In this document: positions 40,484 through 48,864 of the stretch, in pieces
Layout: every line of letters starts with the position of its first letter
How positions within the stretch are numbered: position 1 is the stretch's first letter
Program-made: the position numbers and the translations under genes
Assembly (NCBI GenBank): GCA_947643715.1
Contig: CANRXB010000016.1
Location: 1 to 53,349, forward strand
Direction: 5' to 3'
DNA from: an uncultured bacterium
GTDB lineage: Bacteria > Bacillota > Clostridia > Oscillospirales > Oscillospiraceae
DNA length: 53,349 bases
The notes under the pieces: model-generated
The model's input: only the letters and a program-made list of their open reading frames with translations
Database searches by the model: none
What the model was told of the DNA's origin: nothing

Positions 40484-40560
40484 GGACGATTAGCTCAGCT
40501 GGTATGAGCATCCGCTTGACGTGCGGGAGGTCACAGGTTCGAGTCCTGTATCGTCCACCA
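40484..40560 (+). tRNA. tRNA-Val (anticodon GAC)
   Basis: Complete cloverleaf of 77 nt with encoded CCA. Acceptor GGACGAT / ATCGTCC, D arm GCTC..GAGC, anticodon stem CCGC/GCGG with loop TTGACGT (GAC at 40518-40520), and T arm with GGTTCGAGTCC. The discriminator base is A557. It reads GUC and GUU codons, and its anticodon and discriminator fit the T-box leader upstream of valS. Confidence 0.97.
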
Positions 40561-41830: not shown

Positions 41831-41890
41831 GGCGTCGACTTGAATCACGAAACCGGCGCTTTCCACGTCAAAAACGACCGAATCGACGCC
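41831..41890. repeat. Widely spaced inverted repeat before the LytTR regulator gene
   Basis: GGCGTCGA (41831-41838) and TCGACGCC (41883-41890), 44 bp apart, in the 248-bp gap after the PI-PLC gene. May be chance in GC-rich DNA. Confidence 0.25.
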
Positions 41891-41907: not shown

Positions 41908-41936
41908 TTGACGAAACTGCCCAAAAGCCGTATACT
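41908..41936 (+). promoter_or_regulatory. Sigma-A promoter of the LytTR two-component operon
   Basis: TTGACG, 17-bp spacer, TATACT; start near 41943. Confidence 0.75.
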
Positions 41937-41979
41937 GAGCTAAAATAAGAACAGTGCGCCCGACTGGGAGGTGGCCCCC

Positions 41980-42702
41980 TTGCTCAAGATCCTGATCCTG
42001 GAGGATGAACGGCCCCAGATGGACAAGCTGGTGGCGTTTCTGGAGCGCTACAAGGGCGAGGATCCCAGCTTTGGATACCACTTGGAAACCTACGACCAGG
42101 GATTGGCCCTTCTGGACGCCTATCGATGCGACGCGGACCTGATCTTTCTGGACATCCGGGTGCCGGATATGCTGGGGATGGACGTGGCCCGGCGCATCCG
42201 TCGAATGGACGAGGCGGTCATGATCATCTTTGTCACCAGCCTCACTCAGTACGCCGTAGACGGCTACTCCGTCCGGGCTTTCGACTACATTTTGAAGCCG
42301 GTACGCTATGCGTCCTTTTCCGCCAAGCTGGAGCGGGCGCTGCGTGTGCTCTCCCGCCAAAAGCAGGAACTGGTGCTGGAGCTGCGCACAAAGGCAGACG
42401 TGCGCAAGGTCCCGGCGGACAGCGTGATCTATGTGGAGACCGCCGCCCGCCACGACCTGCTGTTCCACACCGGCGGCGAGGCCATCCGCCAGTGGGGCAC
42501 CCTGTCCCAGTATGAGGAACAGCTCCGGCCGGTCCACTTTGCCCGCCCCTGCTCCAGCTTCCTGGTAAACCTCAAATACGTGCGCGGCGTCAAGAAGGAT
42601 ATGGTGATCCTGGGCGGGACCGAAATCGAGATCCCCCTGTCCCGGTCCAAACGCAGGGATTTTCTGGCGGCGCTGGCCCAATACAAAGGGGGGAGCGCCT
42701 GA
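41980..42702 (+). CDS. LytTR-family response regulator (AgrA/LytR type)
   Basis: DNA-binding response regulator of 240 residues. The receiver domain starts LKILILEDE with the phospho-acceptor Asp58 in LIFLDIRVPDMLGMDVA and Lys in FDYILKPVRY. The C-terminal LytTR domain runs from about residue 140 (ADVRKVPADSVIYVETAARHDLLFHTGGEAIR...FARPCSSFLVNLKYVRGV). GGGAGG lies 8 nt before a TTG at 41980, which I take as start; a GTG at 41971 would sit on the ribosome site. It overlaps the kinase gene by 1 nt (TGATG). LytTR domains bind pairs of short direct repeats, which I find before two downstream genes. Confidence 0.92.
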   Translation: MLKILILEDERPQMDKLVAFLERYKGEDPSFGYHLETYDQGLALLDAYRCDADLIFLDIRVPDMLGMDVARRIRRMDEAVMIIFVTSLTQYAVDGYSVRAFDYILKPVRYASFSAKLERALRVLSRQKQELVLELRTKADVRKVPADSVIYVETAARHDLLFHTGGEAIRQWGTLSQYEEQLRPVHFARPCSSFLVNLKYVRGVKKDMVILGGTEIEIPLSRSKRRDFLAALAQYKGGSA

Positions 42703-43994
42703 TGCCCGCGTGGTACGCCGAATTCCGTTTGCCCATCCTCCTGCTGCAATCTGTGGTAGGCGTGTTCGTGTTCGCCTACTCCCTGCGCAAGCGCCGCCGC
42801 TTTCCTCTCCGGCTCGTGCTGGGCACGTCGGCGGGCTTTGCCGTGCTGCACGGCCTCAGGATCGTCTTTTTCCCGGACATAGGACAGCGCGTGAACAGCC
42901 CGGGGCGCATCGTGATGACCTTTGCCGTCTACCTCGTGCTGATCCTCCTGTGCTGGCTCTTTTTTGAGGAATCCTTCTGGACGGCCCTGTTCGTGGCCGC
43001 TTCCGGATATATCGCCCAGGATCTTGGCGGAACGGTGAAGACCCTGCTGAAACTGGATCCCTGGGTGGATCGGCTGTGCCAGGACGATCTTGGCATCCTG
43101 CTGGTGGACCTGGCGGCGTATTTCGGGATGTATGCGGCGCTGTATCTCGCCTTTCGCCCGTTCACCCGCAGCCGGGAGGAAAATTTCAACAACCGCATGA
43201 AAGCGGTGTTCTCCACCATGGTGCTGGCCTTCGGCCTGGGGATGGCCCGGATCACGCAGGGCAATACCGGCCGGAACGAGACCGCTGTGTTCGCCGAGAG
43301 CGTCTACCAGTTGCTGTGCGGGACGTATATCCTCCTGCTCCAGTTCGGCGTCATGGAGCGGGCCAAGCTCAGCCGCAGCGTGGAGGATATGCGGGAGCTG
43401 GTCCACCTGCAGCGGGAGCAGTTCCGTCAGTCCGAGGAGAGCGCCGCCTTGGTCAACGAAAAGTACCACGACCTGAAGGGCCTGCTGGAGAACTTCCAGG
43501 GCCAGATTTCCCAGGAGCAGACCGACCAGATCAAGCAAAAGGTGGAGAAATACGATACCTTCGTGGACACCGGGAACCGGGTGCTGGACATCGTGCTGGC
43601 GGAGAAGCGGGCGGCCTGCGCCCGCCGGGGCATCGAGCTGACCGCCTTCGCGGACGGCGGAGCGCTGGACTTTATCGAGGAGCTGGACCTGTACGCCCTG
43701 GTCAGCAACGCCCTGAACAACGCGATCGACGCGGTCGTGGAGCTGCCGGAGGGGGAGCGGTTCATCATCCTCACCGCCTCCGCCGAGGGGGACATGGCCG
43801 CCATCCACATGGAGAACCCCTACACCGGCGATATCGCTATGGAGGGCGGCCTGCCCAAGAGCCGCCGGGACGCCCGGTATCACGGCTTCGGCGTAAAGAG
43901 CATGAAACGGACGGTGGAAAAATACGGCGGCACGCTGGCGGTCACACTGAACCACGGAAAATTCCTCTTGGACCTCATCCTGTTCCGGCCATAG
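42702..43994 (+). CDS. AgrC-like sensor histidine kinase (GHKL type)
   Basis: Membrane sensor kinase of 430 residues. About seven hydrophobic segments fill residues 8-220, the layout of AgrC-type peptide-pheromone receptors. A coiled-coil linker (SRSVEDMRELVHLQREQFRQSEESAALVNEKY) precedes the phospho-accepting His in NEKYHDLKGLLENFQ, near residue 256. The GHKL ATPase follows, with N box YALVSNALNNAIDAVVELPEG and a G-rich FGVKSMKRTVEKYGG. No agrB or agrD peptide gene is nearby, so the signal is unknown. It is translated in overlap with the regulator and ends at a strong terminator. Confidence 0.92.
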   Translation: MPAWYAEFRLPILLLQSVVGVFVFAYSLRKRRRFPLRLVLGTSAGFAVLHGLRIVFFPDIGQRVNSPGRIVMTFAVYLVLILLCWLFFEESFWTALFVAASGYIAQDLGGTVKTLLKLDPWVDRLCQDDLGILLVDLAAYFGMYAALYLAFRPFTRSREENFNNRMKAVFSTMVLAFGLGMARITQGNTGRNETAVFAESVYQLLCGTYILLLQFGVMERAKLSRSVEDMRELVHLQREQFRQSEESAALVNEKYHDLKGLLENFQGQISQEQTDQIKQKVEKYDTFVDTGNRVLDIVLAEKRAACARRGIELTAFADGGALDFIEELDLYALVSNALNNAIDAVVELPEGERFIILTASAEGDMAAIHMENPYTGDIAMEGGLPKSRRDARYHGFGVKSMKRTVEKYGGTLAVTLNHGKFLLDLILFRP

Positions 43995-44018: not shown

Positions 44019-44049
44019 GCGGTCCCCCTCCCCGGGGACCGCTTTTTTT
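44019..44049 (+). terminator. Terminator of the two-component operon
   Basis: GCGGTCCCC / GGGGACCGC with a 6-nt loop followed by seven T. Confidence 0.88.
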
Positions 44050-44061
44050 GCGCCCAAAGCG

Positions 44062-44129
44062 CCAATTTTGATGTGAGAGCGGCCACTTTCGTCAGCGGCG
44101 TATACATGATGACTGCGATCTGGTATGTT
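44062..44129 (+). promoter_or_regulatory. Paired direct repeats (LytTR-type sites) and -10 box, site A
   Basis: CCAATTTTGATG (44062-44073) and CCACTTTCGTCA (44083-44094) start 21 bp apart. A -10-like TATGTT (44124-44129) begins 30 bp after the second copy ends (29 bp between). No -35 hexamer is properly spaced, as expected for an activator-dependent promoter. It precedes the lipoprotein hydrolase gene. Confidence 0.6.
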
Positions 44130-44140
44130 CCGGCACAGAA

Positions 44141-44157
44141 CGGTACGAAACGTACCG
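44141..44157. repeat. Palindrome CGGTACG-aaa-CGTACCG
   Basis: Perfect 7-bp arms with a 3-bp centre, positioned about where transcription from the site A -10 box would begin; candidate operator or leader hairpin. Confidence 0.45.
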
Positions 44158-44196
44158 GGAGGAAACGGATCGGAAAGACAAGGAAGGAGCGTCATC

Positions 44197-45075
44197 ATGA
44201 GAAAGCAAGCGATCGCCCTATGGCTGGCCACAGTGGCTATCCTGTCCCTGCTGGCCGGGTGCGGCCAGGGCGCGGGGACGTCCACCCCCGCGCCCACCCC
44301 CAGCCAGGAGGCGGCCCCCGTCCGCGTGGAGGAGCTGTGGCTGGAGAGCGAGGGAAAGAAGATCTATGGCAAGATGTACCTGCCCGGGGAGGAGAAGGAC
44401 AGCTATCCCACCGTCATCCTCAGCCACGGCTTCAACAGCTCGTCCATGCTCAACGAGGGCTACGCCGAGTCCTTCGCCAAACAAGGCTACGCCGCTTACA
44501 TATTCGACTTTTGCGGCGGCAGTCCCAGCACCAAGTCCGACGGCGCCACCACCGAGATGAGCGTGCTCACCGAGTATCGGGACCTGTCTGACGTGATGGA
44601 CCAGATCAAGGCCCTAGACTATGTGGACGGCGAGCAGATGTTCCTGTTCGGACTGAGCCAGGGCGGCTTCGTCTCCGCCTACACCGCCGCCCAGCGCCCC
44701 GACGACGTGAAGGGGCTGGTGCTGTTCTACCCTGCCTTCGTCCTCCAGGAGACCTACTTCCAGCAGTATGGCTCGGTGGAGGATATCCCCGACGAGGAGT
44801 TCGAGTCCATGGGCGTCCCCCTGGGCGCCATCTACGCCAAGGACGCCCGGAGCTTTGACATCTACGAAGAGATCGGCAAGTACAAAGGCGACGTGCTCAT
44901 CTGCCACGGCGACAAAGACACCCTGGTGGACCTGAGCTATTCCGAGAAGGCCGTCGCGGTCTACGACAGCGCCGAGCTGAAGGTCATCCAATACGGCGAG
45001 CACGGTTTCCAGGGCAAGCTGGCCCGGGAGGCCACCGGCTATACGGTGGAATTCCTCCAGGCCCACACCGCTTGA
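44197..45075 (+). CDS. Lipoprotein alpha/beta-hydrolase
   Basis: Extracytoplasmic serine hydrolase of 292 residues, anchored through LLAGC (Cys22) and a Thr/Pro-rich linker (TSTPAPTPSQEAAP). The alpha/beta-hydrolase core has the oxyanion strand VILSHGFNSSS, nucleophile elbow LFGLSQGGF (Ser near 154), the acid in LICHGDKDTLV and the base in YGEHGF. Closest in feel to cinnamoyl/feruloyl esterase or acyl-esterase families. AAGGAGC lies upstream of the ATG at 44197. It follows the LytTR system's terminator and has its own repeat-bearing promoter; an esterase working with the GH3 enzyme downstream on plant glycosides is an inference. Confidence 0.88.
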   Translation: MRKQAIALWLATVAILSLLAGCGQGAGTSTPAPTPSQEAAPVRVEELWLESEGKKIYGKMYLPGEEKDSYPTVILSHGFNSSSMLNEGYAESFAKQGYAAYIFDFCGGSPSTKSDGATTEMSVLTEYRDLSDVMDQIKALDYVDGEQMFLFGLSQGGFVSAYTAAQRPDDVKGLVLFYPAFVLQETYFQQYGSVEDIPDEEFESMGVPLGAIYAKDARSFDIYEEIGKYKGDVLICHGDKDTLVDLSYSEKAVAVYDSAELKVIQYGEHGFQGKLAREATGYTVEFLQAHTA

Positions 45076-45143
45076 CCGGTTTTGACACCAGACCCACCAC
45101 TTTTGACAATGCGCTCCACCCAGGCAGGAACGCCTGTTATACT
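45076..45143 (+). promoter_or_regulatory. Paired direct repeats (LytTR-type sites) and -10 box, site B
   Basis: CCGGTTTTGACA (45076-45087) and CCACTTTTGACA (45097-45108) start 21 bp apart. The -10 box TATACT (45138-45143) has exactly 29 bp between it and the second copy, the same as site A. The TTGACA within the repeats is too far from the -10 (29 bp) to act as a normal -35. A CAGGC-N6-GCCTG repeat (45121-45136) lies just upstream of the -10. Confidence 0.65.
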
Positions 45144-45197: not shown

Positions 45198-45806
45198 ATG
45201 AAAAAGTTCGTCAAAGCTCTTGCCCTCGTGATGTCCGCCCTCACCCTCTGCCTGACCCTCACCGCCTGCGGCGGCTCCGGCTCCGCCGGTCTCTCCAAAG
45301 CCTTCACCGGCGGCGACTCCCGCTACCTGGACGGCATCGGCTGGTACGCCAGCGACGTGTACACCCTGAAGATCAACGCCGACAGCACCTATGAGCTCAC
45401 CTTCCAGGAGCACATCTTCGGCACTACCGATCCCGGCATCAAAGGTATGCGCACCATCATCTACACCGGCAAGTGCACCTCCGCCGCCAGCGCCGACGGT
45501 TGGGAGACCCACGTGGACTACACCCTCCAGCCCGCCGAGCGCATCTACTTCGAGCAGCACGAGAAGGGCTACGGCCGCTCCGCCCTGTCGGGCCACATGG
45601 TGCTGGACAGCGCCAACTGGACCGACGCCATGACCCAGAATTTCGATCCCGAGGGCGGCGCCAAGGGGGCCAAGGAGTTCCTGTCCGAGTTCGCCGAGAC
45701 CCTGACCATCACGGTGGAGGATCCCGCCCTGGACCCCGAGGACGTCTCCCTGGGCTGCCGGATCGTCACCAACCCCGAGCTGAAGCTGCTCTCCAGCGCC
45801 GGCTGA
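45198..45806 (+). CDS. Lipoprotein of unknown function
   Basis: Secreted, lipid-anchored protein of 202 residues (signal peptide MKKFVKALALVMSALTL.., lipobox LTAC at Cys24). The mature part is predicted mostly beta: SRYLDGIGWYASDVYTLKINADSTYELTFQEHIFG, then FYTGKC-like and ISGHMVLDSANWTDAM-type strands, a lipocalin- or beta-sandwich-like rhythm. I recognise no family. GGAGG lies 9 nt before the ATG. It is followed 70 nt later, after a hairpin, by the GH3 gene and most likely shares its promoter, so it may be a surface binding partner of that enzyme. Confidence 0.75.
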   Translation: MKKFVKALALVMSALTLCLTLTACGGSGSAGLSKAFTGGDSRYLDGIGWYASDVYTLKINADSTYELTFQEHIFGTTDPGIKGMRTIIYTGKCTSAASADGWETHVDYTLQPAERIYFEQHEKGYGRSALSGHMVLDSANWTDAMTQNFDPEGGAKGAKEFLSEFAETLTITVEDPALDPEDVSLGCRIVTNPELKLLSSAG

Positions 45807-45814
45807 TAGAAGCA

Positions 45815-45844
45815 AACGGCCGCCGGCGACCACCGGCGGCCGTT
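45815..45844 (+). terminator. Hairpin between the lipoprotein and GH3 genes
   Basis: Perfect 12-bp stem AACGGCCGCCGG / CCGGCGGCCGTT with a 6-nt loop and no T-run; probably attenuates rather than stops transcription into the GH3 gene. Confidence 0.5.
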
Positions 45845-45876: not shown

Positions 45877-48864
45877 GTGAAGGAAAAGAAACCTAAAGTC
45901 AAGGGCCGCGGCCTTTGGACCGCCCTTTCCATCATCTTTACCGTCCTCTTCGCGTTCACCATGATCGCCGGGCCCATCGCCAGCAACTACGCCTCCATCA
46001 TCAACATGGTGCTGGGCATCGAGGCCACCAAAACCGTGGGCGACCCGGGCAAGACCTACTTCGAGGCCGACTTCACCAGCGCCCAGCAGGTGGAGGAGGC
46101 AGAGAAGGTAGTGGAACAGGTGGTGGCCAACGGCTCCGTGCTGCTGCTCAACCGGGAGAACGCCCTGCCCCTGGCTCCCGGCTCTAAGATCACCCTGGCC
46201 GGCGTCAGCTCCGCCAGCTTCGTCTACGGCGGGACCGGCTCCGGCGGCATGGACACCTCCAAGGCCCAGAGCCTGAAGGACGCTCTGGAGGAGGACGGCT
46301 TTGCCGTCAACCCCACCCTGTGGTCCTTCTACACCGAGGGGGCGGGCAAAAACTACCGCCGCACCCTGGCCAGCGGAAGCCTGAACAACTTCATCTTCGA
46401 CAACGCGGGCTACACCGTCAACGAAGCCCCCTTGAGCGCCTACTCCGCCAAGGAGTGGGATTCCGTGAAGGAGTACGGCGACGCGGCGGTCTTCGTCATC
46501 TCCCGGGTGTGCGGCGAGGGAGCCGACCTGCCCTGGTACGGCGCGGGGGACGGAAACGGCAATATCCTGGAGCTGTCCGGCGAGGAGCAGGCCCTGCTGT
46601 CCAAGCTGGCCGAGCTGAAGTCCGCCGGGGACTTGAAAAAGATCGTCGTCCTGCTGAACGTGGCCAACGCGGTGGAGCTGGATTTCCTGGAGCCCTCCGT
46701 GTGCGGCGTGGACTACGGCGTAGACGCCTGCCTGTGGGTGGGCGAGGTGGGCCAGAGCGGGATCCGGGCCGTGGGCGATCTGCTCAACGGCACGGTGAAC
46801 CCTTCCGGTAAGCTGGTGGACACCTACTGCTATGACAACCTCACCTCCCCCGCCCTGCAGAACGCCCACGCCACCGCCTACACGAACGCCGCCGCCCAGG
46901 GCCTCTCCTTCGACGCCAACGACCAGTATTACGTGGTCTACCAGGAGGGCATCTACGTGGGCTACCGCTACTACGAGACCCGGTATGAAGACGTGGTGAT
47001 GGGGACCGGCAACGCCGGGGACTACGACTACGCCTCCACCGTGGCCTATCCCTTCGGCTATGGCCTGAGCTACACCCAGTTCACTTACGGCCCGCTGTCC
47101 ATGGCGGAGCAGGGGGACGAGCTGGCGTTCACCGTGGACGTGACCAACTCCGGCGCCGTGGACGGCGCGGAGGTGGTGGAGATCTTCATGCAGTCCCCCT
47201 ACACCGATCACGACCGGCAGAACGGGATCGAGAAGGCCGCCGTAGAGCTGGTGGGCTACCAGAAGGTCGGTCTGGCCGCCGGGGAGACCTCCACCGTCAC
47301 CATCACCGTGCCCAAAACCGAGCTGCGGACCTACGACGCCAACGGGGCCGGGACCTATATCCTGGACGCCGGAAACTACTACTTCGCCTGCGGCAATGGG
47401 GCCCACGAGGCGCTGAACAACATCCTGGCCGCGAAGGGCTTCACCACCGAGGACGGCATGACCGCCAACGGCGACGCAGCCCTGGCCGCCAAGTACACCG
47501 TGGCCGATCTGGACACCACCGTGTTCGCCACTGCCGTCACCGGCATGTCCATCACCAACCGGCTGGACCACGCCGACCTGAACCGCTTCGACAGCGATCC
47601 CTCCAACGACATCGTCTACCTCACCCGCTCCGACTGGCAGGGCACCATGCCCAAGGCCCAGCTCACCTCCCAGAGCTATCAGGCCGCCGCCCAGCTCGCC
47701 GCCAGCGATGAGATGGTGTCCCTCATGAACGCCCTGTACCAGAAGGACACCTCCGGGACCATGCCCACCTTGGGCAAGGAGGGGGATCTCAACCTGGCCC
47801 AGTTCATCGGCGTGCCCCTGGACGGGACCACCGAGGTGGACGGCCAGAGCTACACCTGGGACGACCTGATGGATCAGGTGACCTTCAACGAGATGGCCCG
47901 GCTCATCGGCCAGACCTACCACAGCACCGTGCCCGTGTCCAGCGTGTCCAAGCCCGCCACCAAGGACGAAAACGGCCCCCAGGGCATCACCGCCACCCTC
48001 ACCGGCGGCGGTTCCTCCACCAGCTATACCTCCGAGGACCTGCTGGCCGCCTCCTTTGACCCGGCGGTGGCGGAGGCGGTGGGCCGCAGTATGGGCAACG
48101 ACTGCCTGCTGGCCAACGCCAAGGCCTACTCCGGCATCTATGGCCCCGGCGTGAATATCCACCGCACCCCCTACTCCGGGCGCAACTTCGAGTATTACTC
48201 CGAGGACCCCTTCATCTCCGGCAAGACCTGCGCCGCCGAGGTGGCGGGCATCCAGTCCAAGGGCGTGTACGTGTACTTGAAGCACTTCGCCCTCAACGAC
48301 CAGGAGACCGCCCGGGACGGCATCTGCGTGTGGACCAACGAGCAGGCAGCCCGGGAGATCTATCTGCAAGCTTTTGAATATCCCGTGGTAGGATCCGGCG
48401 CGTACTGCGTGATGACCAGCTTCAACCGGATGGGCTGCATCTGGGCGGGCGGGGACAAGGACCTGCTCACCGGGATCCTTCGAGGGGAATGGGGCATGCC
48501 CGGTTTCATCCTCACCGACTTCTCCAACAACAACGACTACATGGACGTGCTCAACGGCCTGATGGCCGGGGGCGACGGCTGGGACTGCAACGACGGCGCC
48601 AAATGGACCGAGAAGCTGGTCCAGCACAAGGACGACCCCACTGTGGTGAACGCCATGCGGGAGGCCGCAAAGCGCATCCTGTACACCGTGGCCAACTCCA
48701 ACGCCATGAACGGCGTCAGCGCCAATATGCAGGTCATCGAGATCCGCCCCTGGTGGAAGAACGCCATCGTAGCGGCCGATGTAGTGTTTGGTATGCTGGC
48801 TGCGGTCTCCATTCTCATGCTGGTCAAAACCATCAAGAAAAGCAAAGAGCCCAATATCAGGTAG
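45877..48864 (+). CDS. Glycoside hydrolase family 3 beta-glucosidase, domain-reversed and doubly membrane-anchored
   Basis: Beta-glycosidase of 995 residues starting at GTG with an ideal AAAGGAGGT 7 nt upstream. A membrane helix at about 13-37 is followed by the GH3 C-terminal domain first (VVANGSVLLLNRENALPL, near residue 85). An Fn3-like domain follows (AFTVDVTNSGAVDGAEVVEIFM, near 420). The GH3 TIM-barrel comes last (GPGVNIHRTPYSGRNFEYYSEDPF; KHFALNDQE), with the nucleophile Asp881 in ILTDFSNNND. This is the order known from Ruminococcus/Butyrivibrio enzymes. A second helix at about 950-980 ends the protein, so the catalytic part would be held to the outer face by both ends. Substrate is unproven. 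Confidence 0.92.
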   Translation: MKEKKPKVKGRGLWTALSIIFTVLFAFTMIAGPIASNYASIINMVLGIEATKTVGDPGKTYFEADFTSAQQVEEAEKVVEQVVANGSVLLLNRENALPLAPGSKITLAGVSSASFVYGGTGSGGMDTSKAQSLKDALEEDGFAVNPTLWSFYTEGAGKNYRRTLASGSLNNFIFDNAGYTVNEAPLSAYSAKEWDSVKEYGDAAVFVISRVCGEGADLPWYGAGDGNGNILELSGEEQALLSKLAELKSAGDLKKIVVLLNVANAVELDFLEPSVCGVDYGVDACLWVGEVGQSGIRAVGDLLNGTVNPSGKLVDTYCYDNLTSPALQNAHATAYTNAAAQGLSFDANDQYYVVYQEGIYVGYRYYETRYEDVVMGTGNAGDYDYASTVAYPFGYGLSYTQFTYGPLSMAEQGDELAFTVDVTNSGAVDGAEVVEIFMQSPYTDHDRQNGIEKAAVELVGYQKVGLAAGETSTVTITVPKTELRTYDANGAGTYILDAGNYYFACGNGAHEALNNILAAKGFTTEDGMTANGDAALAAKYTVADLDTTVFATAVTGMSITNRLDHADLNRFDSDPSNDIVYLTRSDWQGTMPKAQLTSQSYQAAAQLAASDEMVSLMNALYQKDTSGTMPTLGKEGDLNLAQFIGVPLDGTTEVDGQSYTWDDLMDQVTFNEMARLIGQTYHSTVPVSSVSKPATKDENGPQGITATLTGGGSSTSYTSEDLLAASFDPAVAEAVGRSMGNDCLLANAKAYSGIYGPGVNIHRTPYSGRNFEYYSEDPFISGKTCAAEVAGIQSKGVYVYLKHFALNDQETARDGICVWTNEQAAREIYLQAFEYPVVGSGAYCVMTSFNRMGCIWAGGDKDLLTGILRGEWGMPGFILTDFSNNNDYMDVLNGLMAGGDGWDCNDGAKWTEKLVQHKDDPTVVNAMREAAKRILYTVANSNAMNGVSANMQVIEIRPWWKNAIVAADVVFGMLAAVSILMLVKTIKKSKEPNIR

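Follow-up and report, generated by a model that had tools for sequence, protein, structure and literature searches.

Systems that pair a LytTR regulator with a GHKL kinase are usually read as quorum sensing. Here we asked which promoters such a pair would control when it is encoded directly beside genes for a hydrolase, a lipoprotein and a GH3 enzyme, and what it might respond to. The window, by which we mean the whole stretch of DNA analysed (53,349 bp), is one whole contig (G000:C16) of a genome of 2.63 Mb in 93 contigs that is 96% complete. A first-pass annotation had proposed that two pairs of direct repeats in this window mark a candidate local regulon of the adjacent regulator. Our analysis supports that proposal at the level of sequence: the pairs are conserved together with the gene cassette, have no other matches in the genome by the pattern searched, and show a LytTR-like spacing and position relative to the promoters.

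A LytTR regulator and a GHKL kinase beside a GH3 cassette

The genes of the cassette are as follows.

41980..42702, + strand, response regulator with receiver and LytTR domains (TTG start; in-frame GTG upstream at 41971)
42702..43994, + strand, sensor kinase of the GHKL type (HATPase_c_5; 73.8 bits, cut-off 22)
44197..45075, + strand, alpha/beta-hydrolase lipoprotein (Hydrolase_4 / Abhydrolase_1)
45198..45806, + strand, lipoprotein with no Pfam or NCBIfam match, kept in the cassette across Clostridia
45877..48864, + strand, GH3 enzyme in permuted order (C domain, Fn3-like domain, N domain) with one predicted transmembrane segment per end

The LytTR domain attributed to the regulator was confirmed, scoring 49.6 bits against a Pfam cut-off of 22.6, and the receiver domain reaches 56.8 bits (cut-off 30.2). 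Among solved full-length structures, ComE is the closest relative of the regulator; against the AgrA equivalog model of NCBIfam it reaches 47.6 bits where the cut-off is 400, so it is not AgrA itself. In the kinase, five transmembrane segments predicted by a simple hydropathy scan are followed by the GHKL ATPase domain, and 27 homologues show no variation at H256 or at the ATP-site residues. Sequence comparison returned no solved relative of this kinase. AgrC has six to seven transmembrane segments, and the likeness to AgrC noted earlier holds as far as the GHKL domain and several membrane segments are concerned, but does not extend to an Agr quorum-sensing circuit. AgrB has no match in the window's own genome and none in 39 of the 42 genomes of the genus, the other three having one. 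Because the own genome has no AgrB match, we rejected such a circuit and regard Agr-type peptide sensing as unlikely here; a different peptide signal is possible.

The N and C domains of the GH3 protein score 63.1 and 78.4 bits (Pfam cut-offs 27 and 31, respectively). Its closest solved chains are named beta-glucosidase, while its best NCBIfam match, an arabinopyranosidase model, stays far below cut-off at 264 of 1300 bits. Judged by family, the hydrolase would be an esterase and the GH3 protein a beta-glucosidase.

Two half-site pairs lie directly upstream of the predicted target promoters

The repeats, promoters and hairpins around these genes are listed below.

41845..41877, - strand, third half-site pair, reverse-facing, TCGTTTTTGACG-N9-CCGGTTTCGTGA, upstream of the regulator; spotted by alignment inspection
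41908..41936, + strand, regulator operon promoter, TTGACG-17-TATACT, both hexamers identical in G022 and G024
44019..44042, + strand, intrinsic terminator of the regulator operon (-20.7 kcal/mol, z -4.1), 19 bp upstream of the first half-site
44062..44073, + strand, half-site 1 of the hydrolase promoter, CCAATTTTGATG (3 mismatches to CCACTTTTGACA)
44083..44094, + strand, half-site 2 of the hydrolase promoter, CCACTTTCGTCA (2 mismatches to CCACTTTTGACA)
44101..44129, + strand, predicted hydrolase promoter, TATACA (44101-44106), 17 bp, TATGTT (44124-44129)
45076..45087, + strand, half-site 1 of the lipoprotein-GH3 promoter, CCGGTTTTGACA (2 mismatches to CCACTTTTGACA)
45097..45108, + strand, half-site 2 of the lipoprotein-GH3 promoter, CCACTTTTGACA (0 mismatches)
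45115..45143, + strand, predicted lipoprotein-GH3 promoter, TCCACC (45115-45120), 17 bp, TATACT (45138-45143)
45815..45844, + strand, hairpin between the lipoprotein and GH3 genes (-26.2 kcal/mol, z -5.1), lacking a T run and perhaps acting in mRNA stability

All four 12-mers of the earlier description were found again at their positions, the copies of each pair starting at a distance of 21 bp from one another, with 29 bp between copy 2 and the -10-like hexamer, TATGTT (44124-44129) or TATACT (45138-45143). The terminator of the regulator operon separates that operon from the hydrolase promoter, and the second pair begins directly after the hydrolase stop codon. The accompanying claim that neither promoter has a usable -35 was only partly borne out: the candidate hexamers are indeed poor (TATACA matches 4/6 and TCCACC 3/6), but a degenerate -35 exists in both, separated from copy 2 by 6 bp and from the -10 by 17 bp. 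G022 and G024 have TTTACA or TTTACC at this position and distant relatives mostly TTG-type hexamers; given the sequences in G022 and G024, the best reading of TATACA and TCCACC is as degenerate versions of a -35 at standard 17-bp spacing. Each half-site pair is thus placed directly upstream of the -35, at a distance of 6 bp from the 12-mer or of 9 bp from a 9-bp core. For a transcript start 6-7 nt downstream of the -10, the core G is calculated to fall at about -50/-51 and -71/-72.

This layout equals that of published LytTR sites, as the first-pass annotation had suggested, at least in the parts of those reports drawn on here (PMC2714321, PMC6193735, PMC10602386). Proven LytTR sites are described as 9-bp repeats that are separated by 12 bp and placed immediately before the -35 (PMC2714321), repeats of the LRS set lie 4-11 bp from the -35 (PMC6193735), the critical G residues for C. 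difficile RgaR are at -51 and -72 (PMC10602386), and AgrA sites precede promoters whose spacer length is poor (PMC4227749). The GTT core of the PlnC consensus (TACGTTAAT) is present in the relatives' sites as CCRGTT..G; in the window, GTT occurs in one copy of four (45076), the other three having ATT or CTT. The two copies of the hydrolase-promoter pair agree with each other at only 7 of 12 positions.

Single 12-mers with up to 3 mismatches occur 23 times in the window against 23.37 expected, and we dropped the statistical argument from single copies as this is chance level. When the pair was searched as CCNNTTTYGNYR-N9-CCNNTTTYGNYR with at most 1 mismatch, the own genome gave 2 matches, both exact and both the window sites, and the backward-read control gave 0. 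The CCNNTTTYGNYR pattern was derived from the four copies and fits them by construction, while the control and the absence of other sites are independent of that choice. The genome scan for stray pairs that had been proposed as a check therefore uncovered none beyond the two sites. Many pairs elsewhere, as a candidate objection to the regulon, was set aside for the own genome on these counts. Across all 42 genomes of the genus, matches with one mismatch are no more frequent than background (60 versus 65 in the control), which speaks against the regulon; 6 of the 60 are the cassette sites of G000, G022 and G024, two each. A stricter pattern taken from the first-pass annotation matches the 45076 pair only, as the 44062 copy does not fit it at the last positions.

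Both pairs are kept in close relatives, where surrounding DNA has diverged

The order regulator-kinase-hydrolase-lipoprotein-GH3 is common to G022 and G024, two genomes of the same genus whose regulators are both 86% identical to that of the window. Both half-site pairs are kept in these genomes together with their spacing and downstream hexamers, and the surrounding intergenic DNA has diverged. Loss of the repeats in relatives that keep the genes, which had been named as an outcome that would speak against the regulon, is thus not what the two close relatives show.

The reverse-facing pair upstream of the regulator, absent from the earlier list of repeats, is present in G000, G022 and G024. 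The gene that it faces in G022 and G024 is divergent and encodes an alpha/beta-hydrolase. The window is without this gene and has a PI-PLC-X-domain gene instead, and the -35/-10 region of the third pair is degenerate there. A tRNA-Val gene (gac; 40484-40560) is located just 5' of the PI-PLC-X-domain gene.

A 21-bp pair and a fixed -10 position recur in distant relatives

Alignment searches with the kinase, from which the best 80 of 277 named-genome matches were taken, brought in records of Gemmiger, Butyrivibrio, Flavonifractor, Christensenella, Olsenella and Tractidigestivibacter. GH3 played no part in this search, and a GH3 gene is found in 72 of these best 80 loci, or in 44 of the 45 among them that extend at least 4 kb upstream and at least 5 kb downstream.

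The lipoprotein gene is preceded by a gap of at least 60 bp in 36 loci, 21 of them non-redundant at 90% lipoprotein identity (G022 and G024 included). A 21-bp pair matching at 9/12 or better is present in 15 of these 21 promoters; all other spacings from 10 to 40 give 4 or fewer, and over 200 single-base shuffles the count averaged 0.8 and reached 4 at most. In the 6 promoters that fail this 9/12 test, the pair is weak or absent. Repeats near the window resemble CCGGTTTTGACA and those of rumen Clostridia resemble CCAGTTACGATG, and in one register they read CCRGTTWYGAYR. For the -10 we examined 23 promoters (the 21 plus the window's two), 15 of which were picked by a motif-pair score of at least 19, a selection that fixes the 21-bp period and leaves the -10 position free. 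A hexamer that matches the -10 at 4/6 or better stands exactly 29 bp away in 14 of the 15 chosen promoters and in 3 of the 8 unchosen ones. Averaged over the chosen 15, the -10 match reaches 4.07 at 29 bp and no more than 2.87 at any other gap from 15 to 35, and the -35 match peaks at 6 bp; the exception is L157, which has no -10 at the expected place.

We rejected the view of the lipoprotein as a widespread family: it is rare, occurring in 2 of 295 sampled genomes of the order, own genome included. G270, the one further lipoprotein homologue in the 295-genome sample, also failed the automatic repeat test; by eye, weak half-sites are followed by TTGAAA-17-TATGAT at the expected spacing.

The same relationship was then followed in a wider set made up of regulator-selected loci (L044-L119 plus the window) and kinase-selected loci (L120-L199), some belonging to both. 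Pooling gave 143 regulator-kinase modules, 126 of them with a GH3 gene within 7 genes. After removal at 75% regulator identity or above, 80 of 86 modules have GH3 within 7 genes, a proportion that is not representative of LytTR systems at large, since the loci were picked for their similarity to the regulator or the kinase of the window. Our evidence is restricted to intergenic promoters, because spacings in coding DNA follow a 3-bp period, of which 21 is a multiple. Among the 80 GH3 modules, 25 have a 21-bp pair matching at 10/12 or better, compared to 8 at 20 bp and at most 6 at each remaining spacing (shuffles: mean 1.4, maximum 5); 55 of the 80 are without such a pair. De novo searches for repeats upstream of GH3 in the first paralogous loci mostly gave no clear pair at the strict threshold, and the clear 21-bp peak appears in the pooled promoter set only. 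A 21-bp excess is also seen in the 'near' promoter class (13/183; RR class 7/80, 'far' class 5/190), and the signal is therefore not confined to GH3 genes. One operator shared by all LytTR-GH3 modules was rejected as an explanation, as modules with strong pairs differ in repeat sequence.

The window's own genome contains 16 LytTR genes, several of them in paralogous pairs beside other GH3 genes, and 7 of the 16 lie within 8 kb of one of the 11 GH3 genes that score over cut-off (rough binomial tail 3e-5). On contig G000:C31 (L054), 20 kb carry two regulator-kinase pairs and several GH3 genes. The regulator-kinase-GH3 neighbourhood also occurs outside Clostridia, in L198 (Litchfieldia salsa) and in L182, L186, L195 and L197 (Actinobacteria, bacterium OL-1).

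Some relatives carry a possible composite operator-terminator element

In 19 of 77 post-kinase gaps, the second half-site of a pair with 20-21 bp spacing overlaps the 5' arm of the terminator-like hairpin of the regulator operon, whereas the same test at other spacings gives 0 to 2. This composite element spans 10 regulators that are non-redundant at 75%, with a -10 matching at 4/6 or better 26-32 bp further on. The hairpin contains the -35 of the target promoter, and the -10 of that promoter comes after the T run. The loci concerned include L124-L127, L129, L137, L139, L144, L156, L164, L165, L166 and L187. The window differs from this layout, its terminator being upstream of the operator.

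Putative esterases are encoded in the relatives' operons at L139 and L162, and L133 (2594-3805) has a glucuronoyl-esterase-like protein (PF22244, E 8e-30) in a cassette-like operon context. These esterases provide circumstantial sequence evidence that fits a role of plant cell-wall glycosides and esters.

A model for the cassette and its alternatives

The anatomy of the sites, their conservation and their position can be read directly from the DNA. Taking them together, we consider it likely that both repeat pairs are operators of the adjacent LytTR regulator, through which it would activate the hydrolase gene and the lipoprotein-GH3 unit. In the proposed sequence of events, an external signal would activate the membrane GHKL kinase, which, as in other members of its family, would phosphorylate the regulator. 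A regulator dimer would then bind the two half-sites (core CCRGTT..G), one per monomer and two helical turns apart, and by analogy with the family the bound dimer, sitting just upstream of a weak -35, would recruit RNA polymerase and activate transcription. Two units would be switched on in this way, the hydrolase lipoprotein gene and the lipoprotein-GH3 operon. Use of plant glycosides by the cassette is plausible, and we speculate that the signal is probably a plant-derived glycoside or its hydrolysis product.

The presence of 16 LytTR genes in the genome, several in paralogous pairs beside other GH3 genes, raises the question of whether the sites might belong to another of these regulators or be common to several of them. 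We think this unlikely, since the sites are kept where the whole cassette is kept, the genome holds no further matches to the pattern, and paralogous modules with strong pairs have different repeat sequences. The adjacent regulator could also act in the opposite sense, repressing or poising the promoters and releasing them on signal. PlnD is a precedent, described as a LytTR-family repressor acting on the same kind of repeats (PMC2714321), and with a -35 present, some transcription without an activator is conceivable. However, the sites lie upstream of the -35 and not over it, and the window's -35 hexamers are poor (3/6 and 4/6), which is the arrangement of an activator and makes repression quite improbable in our view. 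A further reading, in which an unrelated DNA-binding protein uses the repeats or they arose by chance, agrees with the chance-level count of single 12-mers, but the 21-bp peak (25 of 80 versus 8 or fewer at any other spacing), the fixed promoter geometry and the LytTR gene next door leave very little room for it.

A wider reading is one that we put forward tentatively and would not yet favour: that a large GHKL/LytTR family in gut Clostridia, and in some Bacilli and Actinobacteria, senses plant glycosides or their products and not peptides, using a private half-site pair for each surface GH3, and that in a subset the second half-site also serves as a terminator arm, in a composite, insulated switch. 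If these systems are dedicated sugar or aglycone switches, many 'AgrA/AgrC-like' annotations in gut Clostridia would point to the wrong biology. Private operators give each sensor a predicted target promoter, so that a half-site-pair reporter could be used in screens for the signal, and the regulon may set the time at which enzymes for cleaving plant glycosides appear on the surface of gut bacteria.

Comparison with known systems

A LytTR regulator and a GHKL-type membrane kinase are common to the window and to agr (AgrC-AgrA). The promoters resemble those of PlnC/PlnD, AgrA, VirR/RgaR and HdrR of the LRS set in having direct half-sites 21 bp apart, a GTT core and a poor or oddly spaced -35, as far as the cited portions describe them (PMC2714321, PMC6193735, PMC4227749, PMC10602386). 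Unlike in those systems, the putative targets here are a hydrolase lipoprotein and a surface GH3 enzyme instead of bacteriocin, competence or virulence genes, and the kinase lies near a glycosidase gene set with no peptide-processing gene nearby.

The GH3 protein shares with the permuted beta-glucosidases 5wug and 5k6l the placement of the catalytic N domain after the C domain, its N domain aligning to residues 568-748 of 955 and 525-710 of 921, respectively, but unlike them it has a predicted transmembrane segment at each end. Gram-positive polysaccharide utilization loci of Roseburia likewise combine glycosidase genes with their own regulators, and Ros-7 is listed with a LytTR regulator and kinase (PMC5320581). 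According to the same listing, Ros-7 comprises GH25, GH43 and GH51 together with transporters (PMC5320581), whereas here no transporter lies between the regulator and GH3.

A close precedent is Butyrivibrio proteoclasticus B316, in which all 3 of 3 LytTR regulators are close to a secreted GH3 with a C-terminal transmembrane helix, and for which Kelly et al. 2010 propose carbohydrate sensing (PMC2914790). The main text of that paper contains neither 'promoter' nor 'binding site' (PMC2914790), and within the open-access literature, subscription papers and preprints being outside this scope, we found no printed operator or promoter for a LytTR-GH3 module. To this precedent the present analysis adds the candidate operators, the conservation of the cassette and its wider distribution. 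The linkage of LytTR and GH3 is therefore not new (PMC2914790); what appears to be new in that literature is the placement of predicted LytTR operators in a conserved sensor-GH3 cassette. The cassette is a well-supported candidate regulon.
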